From positions 62,001 to 126,000 of the forward strand of contig NZ_CP011125.1 of NCBI RefSeq assembly GCF_000737325.1: DNA of 64,000 nt, in the 5' to 3' direction. The notes beneath the pieces are model-generated. The model worked only from the letters and a program-made list of their open reading frames with translations, was not told the origin of the DNA and made no database searches. How positions within the stretch are numbered: position 1 is the stretch's first letter; each line of letters begins with the position of its first letter. Below are positions 27,469-43,804 of this stretch, piece after piece. A program made the position numbers and the translations under genes. This DNA is from Sandaracinus amylolyticus (GTDB taxonomy: Bacteria; Myxococcota_A; Polyangia; Polyangiales; Sandaracinaceae).

Positions 27469-30400
27469 TCACGAGGGATCGCGGTACGGTCCCTCGCTCG
27501 TCGCGCTCTCCGACGTGCTGCGCAGCGCGTACGAGAGCAGCGCCGGCAGCACGAAGAGCCCGAGCAGCGTGCTCGACACGACGCCGCCCATCACCGCGGT
27601 CGCGAGCGGGCGCTGCACCTCGCTGCCCGCCGATCCCGAGATCGCCATCGGCAAGAAGCCGATCGCCGCGACCGTCGCGGTGAGCAGCACCGCGCGCAGC
27701 ACCGCGATCGCGCCGCTGCGGATCGCGTCCTCCACGCTCGCGCCGCCCTCGATGCGTCGCTTCACCTCGCTCGCCATCACCACGCCGTTGAGCACGGCGA
27801 TGCCGCAGAGCGCGATGAACCCGACCGCCGCGGGGATGCTGAACGGCATGCCGCGCGCCGCGAGCGCCGCGACGCCGCCGATCAGCGCGAAGGGCACGCC
27901 CGAGAACACCGCGAGCGCGTAGCGCACGTCGCCGAACGCGAAGAACAGCATCGCGAAGATGATCGCGAGCGCGATCGGCACGACCATCCCGAGGCGCGCG
28001 CTCGCGCGCTGGAAGTTCTCGAATTGCCCGCCCCACTCGAGGTCGTATCCGTCGGGCAGCTCGATGTCGCGCGCGACCGCGGCGCGCGCGTCGTCGACGA
28101 AGCTGATCAGATCGCGGCCGCGGATGTTCACCTCGATGCGCAGCCGGCGTCGCAGGCTCTGTCGACTGATCTGCGAAGGACCGTCGGCCTCGACCACGCT
28201 CGCGACCTGACCGATCGGCACCAGCGCTCCGTCGGACGTGCCGACGGGGAGCGCGCGGAACCCCTCGAGCGACTGCTCGATCGGCGGCAGCAGCACGCGC
28301 AGCTCCATGCGGCGCTGGCCCTCGAACACGTGGCCCACGCGACGCCCCTGGCGCGACGCCTCGACCGCCGCGAGCACCTCCTCGCTGCGCATGCCGTAGC
28401 GCGCGAGGCGCGTGCGATCCGGGCGCACGAGCAGCATCGGCATCCCGAGCGCGCGCTCGACGCGCACGTCGCCCGCGCCCGGCACGCTGCGCAGCACCGC
28501 GCCGATGCGGCGTCCGATCGAGCTCATGCGCTCGAGATCGTCGCCGAAGAGCAGGATCGCGACGTCGGCGCGCGAGCCCGAGATCATCTCGTTGGTGCGA
28601 TCCTCGATCGGCTGCGAGATCGAGACGAACGTCGAGGGCACCTCGGACTCGATCGCGGTCTTCATCGCCTCGCCGAGCGAGTCGAGATCGTGCGCGGTGG
28701 TCCACTCGTCCTTGGGGCGCAGCCGCACGAGGATGTCGGTGTTGTCCATGCCGACGGGATCGGTCGCGACCTCGGAGCGGCCGGTCATGCCGATCTGACT
28801 GACCACCTCGGGGAAGCGCGCGAGCACGCGCTCCACTTCGAGATCGAGCCGTCGCGCTTCGCTCAGGCCGAGGCTCGGGATCCGACGGATCGCGACGACG
28901 ATGTCGCCCTCGTCGATGCGCGGGACGAAGTCGGCGCCCAGCGAGCCGCCGATCGGGATGGTACAGACCAAGAGGACCACCGCGAGCCCGACGAGCGGAC
29001 CACGCGCGCGGATCGCGCGGTCCACCAGCGTCGTGTAGCGGCCCTCGAGCCAGCCGAGGAAGCCGCCGTGGTGGTGCCCTCCGCCCTTCAGGAAGAGCGC
29101 GGCGCCCGCGGGGAACACGAGCAGCGCGAACACGACCGAGCCGCCGAGCGCGAGCGCCATCGTGGTCGCCATCGGCCGGAACATCTTGCCCTCGGTGCCC
29201 TCGAGGCTGAGCAGCGGCACGTAGACGAGCAGGATGATCAGCACCGAGAACGCGACCGGGCGCGCGACCTGGCGGATCGCGTCGCCGATCGTCTCGGTGC
29301 GCGAGCGCTTCGAGAGATCCTCGATCGCGAGGCGCGCCATCACGGCCTCGACCATCACGATCGGTCCGTCGACGAGCAGGCCGAAGTCGATCGCGCCGAG
29401 CGACATGAGGCTGCCGTCGACGCCGAGCGCGATCATGCCCCACACCGCGAGGATCATCGCGAAGGGGATGCCGAGCGTGACGAGCAGCGCGGCGCGCCAC
29501 GAGCGCAGGAACACGAGGATGACGATCGCGACGAGGACGAGGCCCTCGACCAGGTTCGTCGCGACGGTCTCGAGCGTGCGCTCGATGAAGCTCGCGCGGT
29601 CGTAGACGACGTCGACCTCGACGTCGTCGGGGAGCTCGGCGCGGATGCGCGCCATTTCCTCGTGCACGCGCGACACGACCTCGCGCGAGTTCTGGCCGAT
29701 CAGCATCAGCACGATGCCGGTGACGGCCTCGCCTTCGCCGTTCTGGGTGACGACGCCGTAGGGCAGGGCGGCGCCCTCGCGCACCTCGCCGAGCTGGCGC
29801 ACGAGGATCGGCGTTCCGTCGTCGTCGGCGGAGACCACGACCGAGCCGATCTCCGCGACGTCGCGCAGGAGGCCCTCGCCGCGGATCACGTACTGCTCGG
29901 GGCCGCGCTCGATCCATCCGCCGCCGACGCTCGCGTTGCCGCGCTCGAGCGACTCGAGCACCTGGCCGAGCGTGAGCCCGTACGCCGCGAGGCGACGCGG
30001 GTCGAGCACGACCTGGAACTCCTTGGCCGCGCCGCCCATCGCGTTGACCTCGATCACGCCGGGCACGCTGCGCAGGCGCGGAGAGATCTCCCACTGCAGC
30101 ATCGAGCGCAGCTCCATCGAGCTCCGCTGCTCGCTGCGCAGCACGAACTGGTAGATCTCGCCGAGGCCGGTCGAGACGGGCGCGAGCTGCGGGCGCCCGA
30201 ATTCCGGCGGAATGTCGGCCTCCACTTCGCGCACGCGCTCGGTGACGAGCTGCCGCGCGAACCACACGTCGACGCCCTCTTCGAACACGATCGTGACCGC
30301 GGAGAGCCCACCGCGCGTGACCGAGCGCAGCTCGGTGAGGCCGGGCAGGCCGGTCATCGCCATCTCGACCGGGAACGTGACGAAGCGCTCCATCTCCTCG

Positions 30401-30573
30401 GCGGACAGACCACCCGCCTCGGTGAGCACGACGACCTGCACGTTCGTCACGTCCGGCACTGCGTCGACGGGAAGACGCGGCACCGCCCAGAAGCCGCTGA
30501 TCAACACCGCGACGCCGAGCACGACCATCAGCGCGCGCTGCTTGACCGAGAGATCCGTGATGCGCTCGAGCAT
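27469..30573 (-). CDS. czcA: Heavy-metal efflux RND transporter, CzcA/CusA family
   Basis: 1034 aa, full length for HME-RND pumps, with two six-TM halves each holding a large periplasmic loop. The N-terminal PVDAVPDVTNVQVVV signature is diagnostic, and TM4 carries DFGLLVDGPIVMVE, the proton-relay motif. It exports divalent cations or Cu+/Ag+ across the envelope as a trimer, with the adaptor and outer-membrane channel encoded just upstream. Which metal cannot be told. Starts 11 nt after the adaptor stop. Confidence 0.95.
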   Translation of the reverse strand: MLERITDLSVKQRALMVVLGVAVLISGFWAVPRLPVDAVPDVTNVQVVVLTEAGGLSAEEMERFVTFPVEMAMTGLPGLTELRSVTRGGLSAVTIVFEEGVDVWFARQLVTERVREVEADIPPEFGRPQLAPVSTGLGEIYQFVLRSEQRSSMELRSMLQWEISPRLRSVPGVIEVNAMGGAAKEFQVVLDPRRLAAYGLTLGQVLESLERGNASVGGGWIERGPEQYVIRGEGLLRDVAEIGSVVVSADDDGTPILVRQLGEVREGAALPYGVVTQNGEGEAVTGIVLMLIGQNSREVVSRVHEEMARIRAELPDDVEVDVVYDRASFIERTLETVATNLVEGLVLVAIVILVFLRSWRAALLVTLGIPFAMILAVWGMIALGVDGSLMSLGAIDFGLLVDGPIVMVEAVMARLAIEDLSKRSRTETIGDAIRQVARPVAFSVLIILLVYVPLLSLEGTEGKMFRPMATTMALALGGSVVFALLVFPAGAALFLKGGGHHHGGFLGWLEGRYTTLVDRAIRARGPLVGLAVVLLVCTIPIGGSLGADFVPRIDEGDIVVAIRRIPSLGLSEARRLDLEVERVLARFPEVVSQIGMTGRSEVATDPVGMDNTDILVRLRPKDEWTTAHDLDSLGEAMKTAIESEVPSTFVSISQPIEDRTNEMISGSRADVAILLFGDDLERMSSIGRRIGAVLRSVPGAGDVRVERALGMPMLLVRPDRTRLARYGMRSEEVLAAVEASRQGRRVGHVFEGQRRMELRVLLPPIEQSLEGFRALPVGTSDGALVPIGQVASVVEADGPSQISRQSLRRRLRIEVNIRGRDLISFVDDARAAVARDIELPDGYDLEWGGQFENFQRASARLGMVVPIALAIIFAMLFFAFGDVRYALAVFSGVPFALIGGVAALAARGMPFSIPAAVGFIALCGIAVLNGVVMASEVKRRIEGGASVEDAIRSGAIAVLRAVLLTATVAAIGFLPMAISGSAGSEVQRPLATAVMGGVVSSTLLGLFVLPALLSYALRSTSESATSEGPYRDPS

Positions 30574-38585: not shown

Positions 38586-41500
38586 CTACGAAGCTCCGGG
38601 AATGCCGACGTCGGGGTAGATCTCGCGCAGCCCGTTCTGGTTCATGCGCAGGCGCAAGAACGCTTGTGCCGCGACGAGCCCCGACGTGACGGCGCCCTCG
38701 ACGTGGCCGATGTTCAGCCCGAAATTCGTCCAGTCGCCGCAGAGGAAGAGATTGCGGAACCCCGACTCATCGGCGGCGAGACGGTATTTGTCGCTGCCGG
38801 GCCAGGCGAGCGTGTATTGCTCGCTCGGCGCCGCATTGACGGTGAACCACTGGCGCGCGAGCCGGACGTCGCCGGGGATCTTCTCGGTGCAGCTCGGGTC
38901 GCGGGGATCGACGAGCAGCGAGAGATCGAACGTCCCGTTCTTCACCGCGTTCGGGAAAAACCACCCCATGTTCTGATCGAGCCAGCCGCGCGTGTACTCG
39001 ATCAGGCGCCTCGTCTCGCGCTCGGGGAACCCGTGATCGCTCGGCGGCGGCAGAGGGCCGGTGTCCCAGGTCCCGCAGTAATAGCTGAGCTCACCGGGCA
39101 TCTCGTCGGGGCGCCAGCCCTCGAACGTCAGCACACTGCCCATGTCGGTCCACGAATAGAGCAGATCGGCGTAGATGACCGAATTGGGCTCGTCGCCCTC
39201 GTCCATGCCCCACTCGCTCATCTTCATCCCGAGCTCGGAGAGCGTCGGACGGAGCCAGAGCTGGACTCCGAGCGTCGGAGTCGTGCGCACGTGTCCGACC
39301 ATCTTCTTCCACGCGTCGGAGTGATTCACGATCTCCGCGCAGATCTGCTCCGTCGCGCGCACCGGGATGCCGAGGATCACGTCGTCGAAGTCGACGCCGC
39401 GGCGGAGGACCTCGGTGCGCACCGAGGTCCAGTCGGCCCACGGCGACTCGAGATCGACGTTCTTCTCGCGCAGCACGCGCACCTGCTCGGGATCGAGCTG
39501 GTCGTAGTGCGGGTGAGAGGGCCAGCCGTCGACGTCCTTCACCTTCTTGAGCGGCGAATAGCGCTGCACGCCGGGCGCGAGATCGACCTGGACTCCGACG
39601 GTGATCGACTCGATCTCGTCGGTCGGCGACCAGTGCACTTCCTCGACGTCGCGGAAGAACGCGAACTCGACGCCACGGTGCGCGAGCATCTTGTAGAGGG
39701 GCGCAGTCAGCGAGCCACCGGTGCCCGCGACGAGCTTCCACACCAGCGAGCCACGATACGTCACCGACGCGAGCAAGCTGCGCAGGCCGAGGTCCGCCGC
39801 GAGCCGTCCCGGCTCGCCCTGGTACATGTTGTGGAAACACCCGCAGTAGATGAACCGCACCGGCGCGCAGTCCTTCAGATCCTCGGGCAGCCCGTGCGAG
39901 AGCAGCCACTCGCGATAGTCGCGATCGTTGATGCGACCGAAGTCGAGCTGGTGAGTCCGCTCGTCGTACACGTCCTCGAGGAACCCGCGGAGGTTCGCCA
40001 GGCCGTACTCCGCGAGGATGTAGATGTGCTCGAGGCGATCGTCCTTCGTGCGATCGGCGGGCGCGAGGTGACGCAGAAGCGTGACGAACCCGCCGAGCAG
40101 CCCCGCGATCACGCGCAGCACCGAGACCTCGAGGCCGTTGATCTCGACGGTCGGCTTCTTCGCGAAATCCTTCGCGAGATCGCGCGCGTACGCGACCCAC
40201 TGCAGCTCGGGGCGGTGATGATCGGAGAGGCCGAGCGCGCTCTTCGCGACGTCCTTCCACCAGTGCGGCTCGCTCTTCTCCCAGGGCGGCGTGAACCACG
40301 TGTGGATCACGATCGGAGAGAGCAGCTTCTGGATCCACGATTGGTCCTCGGCGTACGGCGAGCCGAGCACGAGCTCCGCGAGCAGTCCGAGCGCCTCGCC
40401 GATCACTTCGTAGATCGGCGGCGGACCGCCTTCGCCGGGGAGCTCTTCGTTGTACGGGAAGAGAATGGGCCAGTTGGTCCACTCACCGGTCTTCGCGTTC
40501 TGCTGCGTGAACAGCGTCGCATCGTCGGGCACGAACGCGTCGGTCCACTTCGGCAGCGGAGAGCCCGGCGCGAGATGGTATTTGGCCATCTCGTCGTAGG
40601 CGTCTCGCACCATGCGGAATGCGTTGTTGTACCAGCCCTGGAAGATGTGGATTCCGCGCTCTTCGATGCGATCGCCGGGGCCGAACCCATTGGCGGTCTT
40701 GCCGCCGACGCGCCACCCGATCTGATAGAGCGTGACCTCGTAGTGATCGCGCCAATTCGGATAGCTGGTGAGCTCGTACGCCGCCGAGAGCGATGCGAGG
40801 CCGCCGCCGAGAATGGCCACCTTCCGCTTCGCGCCGGGGCGCGGCGGAGGCAGCGGGACCGGCTTCTCGTCGGTCGGCGCGCCACCCGGATAATCGGGCA
40901 ATCCCATGTTGATCAGGCGCTTGAGCCCGGGCTGTCCGATCCAGCCCGACGCGTGCTCGTAGAGCGAGGTCAGCTGGGGGATGACGAAGAGATCGTCGAA
41001 CGTCTGCTCGAGATCGTCGCCGACGGAGTGGCCCTTCTGCAGGATGTTCCGGACGTCGCGCTCGGTGAGCGGGTAATGCCGCGGATAGAACGCCGGGATC
41101 TCGACCATGATCGCGACGCTGGGGAGCGCGGGATTCGCGAGGATCTGGCCGAGCTCTCCGAATTCCATGCCTTCGACCATGCTCTGCGCGTAGAGCAGTC
41201 GATAGAGCACGATGTTCATGAACACGCGCTCCGACCACGGCTCGGCGTGCGCGAGCGCGACGGACTCGAGATATCCGGCGACGATGCTGCTGTTGTGGGC
41301 GCGGTACCAGCTCTGCGGCGTCTTCTCGCGCTGGAACGCGAGCCAGAATCGGACTGGCGCCGATCCCGGCGAGAGCTCGGGGAGGTTGTCGGCGATCAGC
41401 GACGCGAGCTCGGCGTGATAGAGGAGCGCGCCATTGACCGCGCGCCACCACGGAGAGCCGCCCTTCTCGACGGGCGCGAGCACACCGCGCTCGATCTCCC

Positions 41501-41672
41501 AGCGCATGAAGTCGAGCTCGGAGCGTCCGAGCCCGTACGGCTTCGGATCGCCGCCCCATCGCTCGTAGTAGCGCTGTCGCAGTGCGAGGCGTCCCTGCGG
41601 ATCGTCGGCGACGGAGTCGACGGTCGCGCGGGCGCGCTTGCACAGCTCTTCGTAGGTGATCTCCCCCGGCAT
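38586..41672 (-). CDS. Large FAD/NAD(P)-dependent amine-oxidase-like oxidoreductase
   Basis: 1028 aa. A non-family N-terminal region of about 280 residues (helical, Trp-rich) precedes the Rossmann motif ILGGGLASLSAAYEL (287-301). The body resembles phytoene desaturase/carotenoid isomerase-like and HpnE-like flavoproteins, and near the C-terminus NLFLCGDWTNFGLNIGHVEG matches the FAD-pyrophosphate end of amine oxidases. About twice the usual size of those enzymes. The reaction is unknown; an isoprenoid or steroid substrate is possible. The giant signalling gene follows 5 nt downstream, so the two form an operon. Confidence 0.88.
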   Translation of the reverse strand: MPGEITYEELCKRARATVDSVADDPQGRLALRQRYYERWGGDPKPYGLGRSELDFMRWEIERGVLAPVEKGGSPWWRAVNGALLYHAELASLIADNLPELSPGSAPVRFWLAFQREKTPQSWYRAHNSSIVAGYLESVALAHAEPWSERVFMNIVLYRLLYAQSMVEGMEFGELGQILANPALPSVAIMVEIPAFYPRHYPLTERDVRNILQKGHSVGDDLEQTFDDLFVIPQLTSLYEHASGWIGQPGLKRLINMGLPDYPGGAPTDEKPVPLPPPRPGAKRKVAILGGGLASLSAAYELTSYPNWRDHYEVTLYQIGWRVGGKTANGFGPGDRIEERGIHIFQGWYNNAFRMVRDAYDEMAKYHLAPGSPLPKWTDAFVPDDATLFTQQNAKTGEWTNWPILFPYNEELPGEGGPPPIYEVIGEALGLLAELVLGSPYAEDQSWIQKLLSPIVIHTWFTPPWEKSEPHWWKDVAKSALGLSDHHRPELQWVAYARDLAKDFAKKPTVEINGLEVSVLRVIAGLLGGFVTLLRHLAPADRTKDDRLEHIYILAEYGLANLRGFLEDVYDERTHQLDFGRINDRDYREWLLSHGLPEDLKDCAPVRFIYCGCFHNMYQGEPGRLAADLGLRSLLASVTYRGSLVWKLVAGTGGSLTAPLYKMLAHRGVEFAFFRDVEEVHWSPTDEIESITVGVQVDLAPGVQRYSPLKKVKDVDGWPSHPHYDQLDPEQVRVLREKNVDLESPWADWTSVRTEVLRRGVDFDDVILGIPVRATEQICAEIVNHSDAWKKMVGHVRTTPTLGVQLWLRPTLSELGMKMSEWGMDEGDEPNSVIYADLLYSWTDMGSVLTFEGWRPDEMPGELSYYCGTWDTGPLPPPSDHGFPERETRRLIEYTRGWLDQNMGWFFPNAVKNGTFDLSLLVDPRDPSCTEKIPGDVRLARQWFTVNAAPSEQYTLAWPGSDKYRLAADESGFRNLFLCGDWTNFGLNIGHVEGAVTSGLVAAQAFLRLRMNQNGLREIYPDVGIPGAS

Positions 41673-41843
41673 CGTTCGGTCAGCGTACTCACGGTGACGC
41701 GCCGTTCTCAACGACGATGCGGTGTCGATCGGTCGTTACAGCGCGACGAGATCTCCGGATCGCGCGCAAGCGCGGAGGCGAGCGTGAAGCGCGCGGACGG
41801 TAGGGACCGGCGGGCGAGCCGATTCTTCGACAATCTAGAGGTC

Positions 41844-42389
41844 ATGGCGACGGGACCGTGGCTCTGGGCGCTGGTGGCCGCCGCGCTCTTCGGGGCGTCG
41901 ACGCCGGCGGCGAAGGCGCTGCTCGGCGCGATCGGGCCCTTCACGCTCGCGGGGCTGCTCTACCTCGGCGCGGCGCTCGCGGTGGCGCCGAGCGCGCGAG
42001 CGTGGCCGCGCGCCGCGCTGCGGGAAGGCGCGACGCGATGGCGCCTCGGCGGCGCGGTGCTCTTCGGCGGGGTGATCGGGCCGGCGCTGCTGATGCTCGG
42101 GCTGCGCGCGGCGAGCGTGTCGGTGCGCGAGCCGCTGACGACGGTGTCGATCGTCGCGACCGGGCTCCTCGCGGTCGCGCTGCTGATGCTGCCGCGCGAT
42201 CGCCACGCACACGCGCATCGACACGAGCGGACGCGGCACGCGCACTGGCATCGTCACGACGACGCGCACCACACGCACGCGCACGAGCGACTGCCGCGCT
42301 TCGGATGGCACTTCCACGAGCACGATCACGACGCGATCGAGCACGTGCATCCGCACGAGCCGGATCTGCACCATCGGCACTCGCACTGA
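41844..42389 (+). CDS. Shortened EamA-like membrane protein with histidine-rich tail
   Basis: 181 aa from ATG 41844. The N-terminus (LWALVAAALFGASTPAAKAL) is the first EamA helix almost verbatim, and two more helices follow. After a fourth (VSIVATGLLAVALLM) comes a tail with 23 His in 61 residues ending LHHRHSH, the usual end of EamA proteins of this type. Full-length members are near 300 aa with ten helices, so about 100 residues between helix 3 and the tail appear missing without frameshift. It may be a decayed transporter or a small metal-handling membrane protein. No frameshift is visible. Confidence 0.75.
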   Translation: MATGPWLWALVAAALFGASTPAAKALLGAIGPFTLAGLLYLGAALAVAPSARAWPRAALREGATRWRLGGAVLFGGVIGPALLMLGLRAASVSVREPLTTVSIVATGLLAVALLMLPRDRHAHAHRHERTRHAHWHRHDDAHHTHAHERLPRFGWHFHEHDHDAIEHVHPHEPDLHHRHSH

Positions 42390-42406
42390 AGCGTGGGAGA
42401 AGAATT

Positions 42407-42480
42407 CACCACGGAGGGCCGCAGAGGGCCGCAGAGGAATTGGCCCTGATCTCCGTGGCCCTCTGCGATCTCTGCGGTGG
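42407..42480. repeat. Intergenic hairpin of the ccacggag/gcagagg type
   Basis: Two arms with related heptamer-like words: ccacggagggccgcagagg on the left, ctccgtggccctctgcg and ctctgcggtgg on the right, separated by a short spacer. They can fold into a long imperfect hairpin in the 98-bp gap between two convergent genes. Similar ccacggag/cagagg repeats are found between genes in many unrelated bacteria. It probably ends transcription from both sides. Confidence 0.6.
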
Positions 42481-42487
42481 ATTTCCG

Positions 42488-43804
42488 CTAGCGCTTCGAC
42501 TCGCGCTCTCGGAATCGCGCCGCGAGCGTGCGCACGAACGCGCCCATCCACGGCTTGAGCGACTCCACCTCGCGCTCCAGCGTCTCCGCGGTCACCACGC
42601 GCAGCGTGCTCGACTCGAGCGCGACGACGCTCGCGGTGCGCGGGCCGGGCGCGAGGATCGCCATCTCGCCGAACACCTCGCCGGGGCCCATCACGCGCAG
42701 CACGCGGCGATGCCCCGACGGGCCCTGGAACACCTCGAGGCGGCCGCTCTCGATGATGTACGCGGTCTCGCCCGCCTCGCCCTCGCGCACGACGTGCTCG
42801 CCGGGCGCGACCGTGATCACCGGGAAGAGCCCACCGCCGCGCACGAACTGCACGAGGTCGTGCCGCATCGCGGCGACCGACGGATAACGATCGCCGGGCG
42901 CGACCGACATCGCGCGCGTCACGATGCGCGCGAGCGCGCGCGGGGTGTGCGGCGCGATCTGCTCGATCGGATCGCACTGCCCGGTCTGGGCGCGCACGAC
43001 GATCGCCCAGAACGTGTCGGCCGCGTACGGCGCGCGGCGCGCGAGCACGTGATAGAGCAGCGCGCCCACCGCGAACACGTCGGTGCGCTCGTCGAGCTCG
43101 TCGTTGAGGCCGCGGGCCTGCTCGGGCGCCATGTGGGTCGCGGTGCCGACGAGACGAACGCTCGAGCCGCTGCGCTCCTCGGGCGCCACCGGCGTCGCGA
43201 CGGGACCGAGGCGACGCGCGATGCCCCAGTCCATCAGGTAGACCTGACCGAAGTCGCCGACCATCACGTTCGCCGGCTTCACGTCGCAGTGGATGACGCC
43301 GCGGCTGTGCGCGAACGCGAGCGCGTCGCAGCACTTGATCACGACGTCCAGGAGATCGAGCAGCGTGTCGTGCGCGATCGGTCCTTCGGGCAGCGCGCGC
43401 ACGATCTCCGCGAGCGTGCGGCCCTCGACGAGCTTCATCGTGAAGAAGAGCGAGCGCTCGCCCTCGACGCCGAGCTCGTGCACCGGGACGATGTTCGGGT
43501 GCTCGAGCTGCCCCGTGATCTGCGCCTCGCGCACGAACATGCGCAGTGTCTGCGGGTCCTTCGCGAGGTGGTCGTGGATGCGCTTGAGCACGGTGCGGCG
43601 CTCGAGCGCCTTGTCGAGCACGACCTCGACCGACGCCATGCCGCCGGCGCCGATGTCGCCCGCCGGCAGCAGCCGCGAGGTGAGCGCATCGCGCAGCGCC
43701 GCGACGATCGAGGGCACGTCGCCGTCGAGCGTCTCCATGCTCGCGCGCGTCGCCGGCGCGTCGGGCGCGCGCGGCGCGCGAGGCCTGCCGTTCCGCGTCT
43801 CCAC
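42488..43804 (-). CDS. Ser/Thr protein kinase with C-terminal cyclic-nucleotide-binding domain
   Basis: 438 aa. Kinase domain about 45-320 with glycine loop IGAGGMASV, Lys74, HCDVKPAN (His172, Asp174) and DWG (192-194) in place of DFG; both substitutions occur in some active kinases, and the key Lys and Asp residues remain. A cyclic-nucleotide-binding domain (about 325-435) follows with the phosphate-binding GEVFGEMAIL motif. This fusion is like a eukaryotic PKG rearranged. It would let cAMP or cGMP control phosphorylation. The window also encodes a cyclase-like protein 4 kb away, but there is no evidence that they are linked. Confidence 0.9.
   Translation of the reverse strand: METRNGRPRAPRAPDAPATRASMETLDGDVPSIVAALRDALTSRLLPAGDIGAGGMASVEVVLDKALERRTVLKRIHDHLAKDPQTLRMFVREAQITGQLEHPNIVPVHELGVEGERSLFFTMKLVEGRTLAEIVRALPEGPIAHDTLLDLLDVVIKCCDALAFAHSRGVIHCDVKPANVMVGDFGQVYLMDWGIARRLGPVATPVAPEERSGSSVRLVGTATHMAPEQARGLNDELDERTDVFAVGALLYHVLARRAPYAADTFWAIVVRAQTGQCDPIEQIAPHTPRALARIVTRAMSVAPGDRYPSVAAMRHDLVQFVRGGGLFPVITVAPGEHVVREGEAGETAYIIESGRLEVFQGPSGHRRVLRVMGPGEVFGEMAILAPGPRTASVVALESSTLRVVTAETLEREVESLKPWMGAFVRTLAARFRERESKR

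Follow-up and report, generated by a model that had tools for sequence, protein, structure and literature searches.

The ORF at 41844-42389 (+) in the window, by which we mean the whole 64,000-nucleotide stretch of the Sandaracinus amylolyticus genome that was analysed, is probably (roughly two chances in three) a recently broken and displaced gene for a CnrT-like nickel exporter, now a decaying remnant. In this account, a CnrT-like DMT nickel-exporter gene has lost 483 nt internally and in frame, and what is left stands between two dispersed repeats within a segment of 727 nt, away from an RND metal pump. Without TM4-TM9 the ten-helix transporter, with its two-fold pseudo-symmetry, presumably cannot form, and metal transport would most likely have ended. 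The features of the region are as follows.

38586-41711, minus strand: gene on the left flank, coding for an amine-oxidase-like NAD(P)/FAD protein and conserved in the sister species G002 (Pfam; 93% DNA identity)
41763-42489, no strand: 727-nt segment absent from the site in G002 (genome comparison)
41782-41830, no strand: partial copy of a dispersed repeat whose full unit measures about 84 nt and which can form tandem arrays at other sites (75 genome matches)
41844-42389, plus strand: internally deleted CnrT-like DMT ORF, 181 aa plus stop (homologue alignment)
41844-42122, plus strand: N-terminal part that was kept (residues 1-93, with TM1-TM3); its DNA is 82% identical to the G002 gene from the ATG on (alignment)
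42117-42127, plus strand: deletion junction (ungapped breakpoint scan)
42126-42197, plus strand: last helix, equal to TM10 of the full-length protein (alignment; model helix 98-115)
42198-42386, plus strand: C-terminal tail with 23 His in residues 119-181 (alignment; His counts)
42397-42485, no strand: long inverted repeat, a second dispersed element (23 genome matches; RNA fold)
42488-43804, minus strand: right flanking gene, protein kinase with a cNMP-binding domain, conserved in G002 (Pfam; 92% DNA identity)

A CnrT-like gene without its middle

The ORF runs from an ATG at 41844 to a stop at 42387-42389. Like the 10-helix DMT transporters of the EamA type, its product scores above the gathering cut-off of Pfam EamA (PF00892; 32.6 bits against 28.2, residues 7-114), but the match is a single partial domain that begins as repeat 1 and finishes as repeat 2, whereas the full-length relative in G002 shows two matched stretches. 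Since the reading frame stays open for 1241 codons in all, openness proves little; it is homology that marks the ORF as real.

The parent family was identified by comparison with CnrT. When plasmids were searched by tblastn with a full-length Acidovorax relative (L042), the Cupriavidus CnrT came up at 70% identity. Between CnrT and the G002 protein, identity is 38% along almost the entire length, tail included, and the ORF product is 37% identical to CnrT over residues 16-121 and the end of the tail. Judged from these alignments, the parent family of the ORF is that of the CnrT-like nickel exporters of the DMT superfamily. The ORF shares with CnrT of Cupriavidus metallidurans CH34 (cnr determinant, plasmid pMOL28) the N-terminal half of EamA and the His-rich tail, but has no TM4-TM9. 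The structure of a full-length member (L037) was predicted as a 10-helix DMT fold (pLDDT 79.6, pTM 0.76, from an alignment about as small as that used for the short form), with matches in the PDB to LicB, SLC35B1 and 5i20, which we take to be YddG. Passages of two published papers describe Ni(II) export by DmeF, CnrT and CnrCBA (PMC11647595) and assign cnrT to the DMT family (PMC7019866).

The closest full-length relative is a gene encoding 342 aa in G002, a second genome of the genus. Compared with it, the ORF does not have residues 94-254 (161 residues, 483 nt), which correspond to TM4-TM9, and DNA identity is 82% before and 80% after the gap. The breakpoint scan gave near-equal scores for breaks after CDS nucleotides 273-284, so the site is uncertain within about 10 nt. 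Helices of the product were predicted at residues 5-27, 32-51, 58-89 and 98-115 in a low-confidence model (pLDDT 61, pTM 0.30, small alignment), and its 23 His all lie in the last 61 residues. The original prediction of an internal in-frame deletion that joins the N-terminal EamA helices of a longer protein to a His-rich tail thus agrees with the alignment to full-length homologues; its count of 23 His was correct, and its four helices recur in the structure prediction, at low confidence. Its estimate of about 100 missing residues holds as to the absence but falls short in size, and the His-rich tail that it considered typical of EamA proteins proves, from the comparisons with CnrT, to be a mark of the CnrT-like nickel-exporter subfamily.

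The middle part is kept in all 67 other non-redundant near-full-length homologues of the alignment, and the short form is for this reason derived; among the genomes compared it is so far known from one only. Indeed, when 98 loci were screened for reading frames, none besides the ORF ran from the N-terminal part straight into the tail. An ancestral short form, named beforehand as one thing that would refute the deletion, was rejected on these two results. The loci came from part of the matches, in 45 of 183 genomes and 67 of 377 genomes (overlapping sets, each including the genome studied here); matches not made into loci were judged by the open-frame column, and the short ones were fetched (14 regions). 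The other short frames in the screen lay at contig edges, carried a frameshift or stop (L144 in G158, L022/L198 in G046, L191 in G341) or were an N-terminal fragment (L190 in G242); assembly errors are possible in these broken-looking genes of the phylum. Titles and opening lines of abstracts in the literature gave no recognisable mention of the 181-aa form, which is no proof of its absence from print.

A segment with dispersed repeats

The ORF lies in a 727-nt segment (41763-42489) in place of which G002 has 4 nt, with the flanking genes adjacent. This difference may be either an insertion in the genome that carries the ORF or a loss in G002. Four further genomes (G004, G007, G008 and G009) have a homologue of the kinase, and no oxidase was found with it in the 8-10 kb fetched.

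A dispersed repeat stands on each side of the ORF. The upstream one (41782-41830) has 75 matches in its own genome and the downstream inverted repeat (42397-42485) has 23, each count including the repeat itself; the latter folds as RNA with a z of -4.5, and none of 200 shuffles was as stable. An Rfam search of the segment, partial repeat copy included, gave no family above its cut-off, and a search for a link to phage gave no match to phage sequences. The repeat of about 84 nt is palindromic and occurs singly or in short tandem arrays (for example L095, L103, L109 and L115), with many copies in G002; for one full copy, only 2 of 200 shuffles fold at least as well, and the repeat can be described as REP/BIME-like.

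Linkage to a heavy-metal RND efflux operon is common, though not universal, for CnrT-like genes. On pMOL28 the CnrT gene follows cnrCBA. In G002, the CnrT-like gene is divergent from genes for an adaptor of the CzcB type and for a heavy-metal RND permease of the CzcA/CusA type, the permease being 35% identical to CnrA. The ORF, by contrast, adjoins no RND pump, its neighbours being the oxidase-like gene and the kinase; the nearest RND permease among those seen (27469-30573, minus strand) is 11 kb away. This permease, a member of the AcrB/AcrD/AcrF family, shares 40% identity with the metal RND pump that neighbours the G002 gene.

The full-length G002 gene occupies another site, about 640 nt from a tRNA-Leu, the tRNA-Leu(TAA). 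The S. amylolyticus genome has, at a distance of 11.8 kb from its intact gene for the same tRNA, a 61-nt near-copy of the 3' end (G000:C1:6728322-6740291; L133, L134), and the pair resembles the boundaries of a genomic island that has integrated.

Conserved residues and the age of the deletion

Conservation was scored on 67 non-redundant sequences plus the ORF and the G002 protein, a set used also for the tree and restricted to frames spanning G002 residues ≤80 to ≥290. With a threshold of 85% or more of these 67 homologues, 69 columns counted as conserved. The deletion removed 27 of these, among them N100, E102, T106, E116, W158, D161, N162, K180, Y217, S220 and R235, and with them nearly all conserved polar or charged membrane positions. 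The 42 kept columns comprise apolar helix positions, acidic and His positions of the tail, and Y40, the sole conserved polar membrane residue that remains. The ORF therefore has neither the two EamA repeats with ten helices nor the conserved polar and charged membrane residues of the family, and retains the His-rich tail with its conserved spacing (23 of 23 conserved His columns intact). Because of the loss of the membrane residues, transport of the CnrT type should be lost; on sequence grounds, the product most likely no longer carries it out.

The kept parts contain no frameshift and no in-frame stop, and the ORF deviates at 2 of the 42 kept positions, against 1 in G002 and 1.19 on average in the other homologues. 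The dS between the ORF and the G002 gene is 0.47 overall and 0.71 in the tail, compared with 0.20-0.22 for the flanking genes. A simple orthologue with a new deletion is not supported in that form, given this excess and the different sites of the two genes, which are older duplicates or transferred copies. Relative to G002, omega is 0.40 in the kept parts of the ORF, as against 0.14-0.24 in three neighbouring genes; by part, it is 0.21 in the tail and 1.1 in the TM10 part, where only 15 differences enter the estimate. The amino-acid branch of the ORF in the tree is 0.25, that of G002 0.15, although a relative-rate test was not significant (unique changes in the ORF and G002 of 14/12, 9/3 and 4/1, depending on the outgroup set).

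If no selection acts, the neutral distance accumulated since the deletion is at most about 0.05 per site, whereas divergence per lineage since the split from G002 is about 0.10 (half of the flanking dS). Thus, unless selection continues to act on the product, the deletion is young, and one genome cannot separate the two cases. Upstream of the ORF, an AGAGG precedes the ATG with a gap of 2 nt, which is unusually short, and a scan confined to sigma-70-like promoters found none. The protein of the ORF matched only itself in its own genome at E below 1e-4.

What the short form may be

In favour of a broken gene we count the full-length parent gene in G002, the middle kept in every other homologue, the lost conserved columns, the weak fold of the short form, the extra segment with its bracketing repeats, the narrow AGAGG-ATG gap, the lack of a sigma-70-like promoter in the scan, the single genomic copy and the broken or truncated family copies of G046, G158, G341 and G242. 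Against it stand the open frame, the few deviations at kept positions, the intact His, the low omega of the tail and the in-frame joining, which has a one in three chance; a dead gene would require a young deletion. These same features could point to a product maintained by selection, in which four helices anchor a cytosolic His-rich tail that binds or buffers Ni, Co or Zn. From the alignment and the model, the TM3 to TM10 joint preserves helix parity, so that the tail would still face the cytosol, and all 23 tail His have survived despite the distance to the G002 copy. A young deletion explains this conservation equally well, the short form occurs in one genome only and is predicted to fold poorly, and the raised omega of the kept parts, above all in TM10, and the longer branch speak against selection, even if unique changes are not significantly more numerous in the ORF. 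We therefore regard such a buffer as a minority reading, and consider it rather unlikely that the deletion itself converted a nickel exporter into a membrane-tethered metal buffer under selection. If this were true, a small metal-storage protein would have arisen by a new route; were the product still in use, the tail of CnrT would work without its channel, and the role of long His tails would become directly testable.

The original prediction had also proposed a small metal transporter comparable to single-domain DMT proteins, and this did not stand up. Transport by a homo-oligomer of four-helix units, as in SMR proteins of the EmrE type, would suit the four predicted helices and a size near that of single-domain DMT proteins. 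The helices are TM1-TM3 and TM10, though, and not a contiguous four- or five-helix unit (TM1-4 in SMR proteins), the conserved polar and charged membrane residues are gone, the fold is poor, and the SMR profile PF00893 gave no match to the product at E up to 1. Moreover, the TM1 Glu of EmrE is essential, and TM1 of the ORF product has no acidic residue; SMR-like transport is thus very improbable. No more credible is a full-length gene shortened by an assembly or sequencing error, for which it can be cited that only one assembly of the species was seen. A clean in-frame loss of 483 nt is an unusual error for long reads, the flanks agree with G002 at 92-93%, and the source genome is a single contig of 10,327,335 bases. 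The published genome of S. amylolyticus DSM 53668, with which it is probably identical, is reported to have ~85x PacBio coverage and Quiver polishing (PMC5010890).

As a recently broken CnrT-like gene, the ORF would be ordinary, and its interest lies in a correction of annotation: the EamA match at this position should not be taken to mean a functional transporter.
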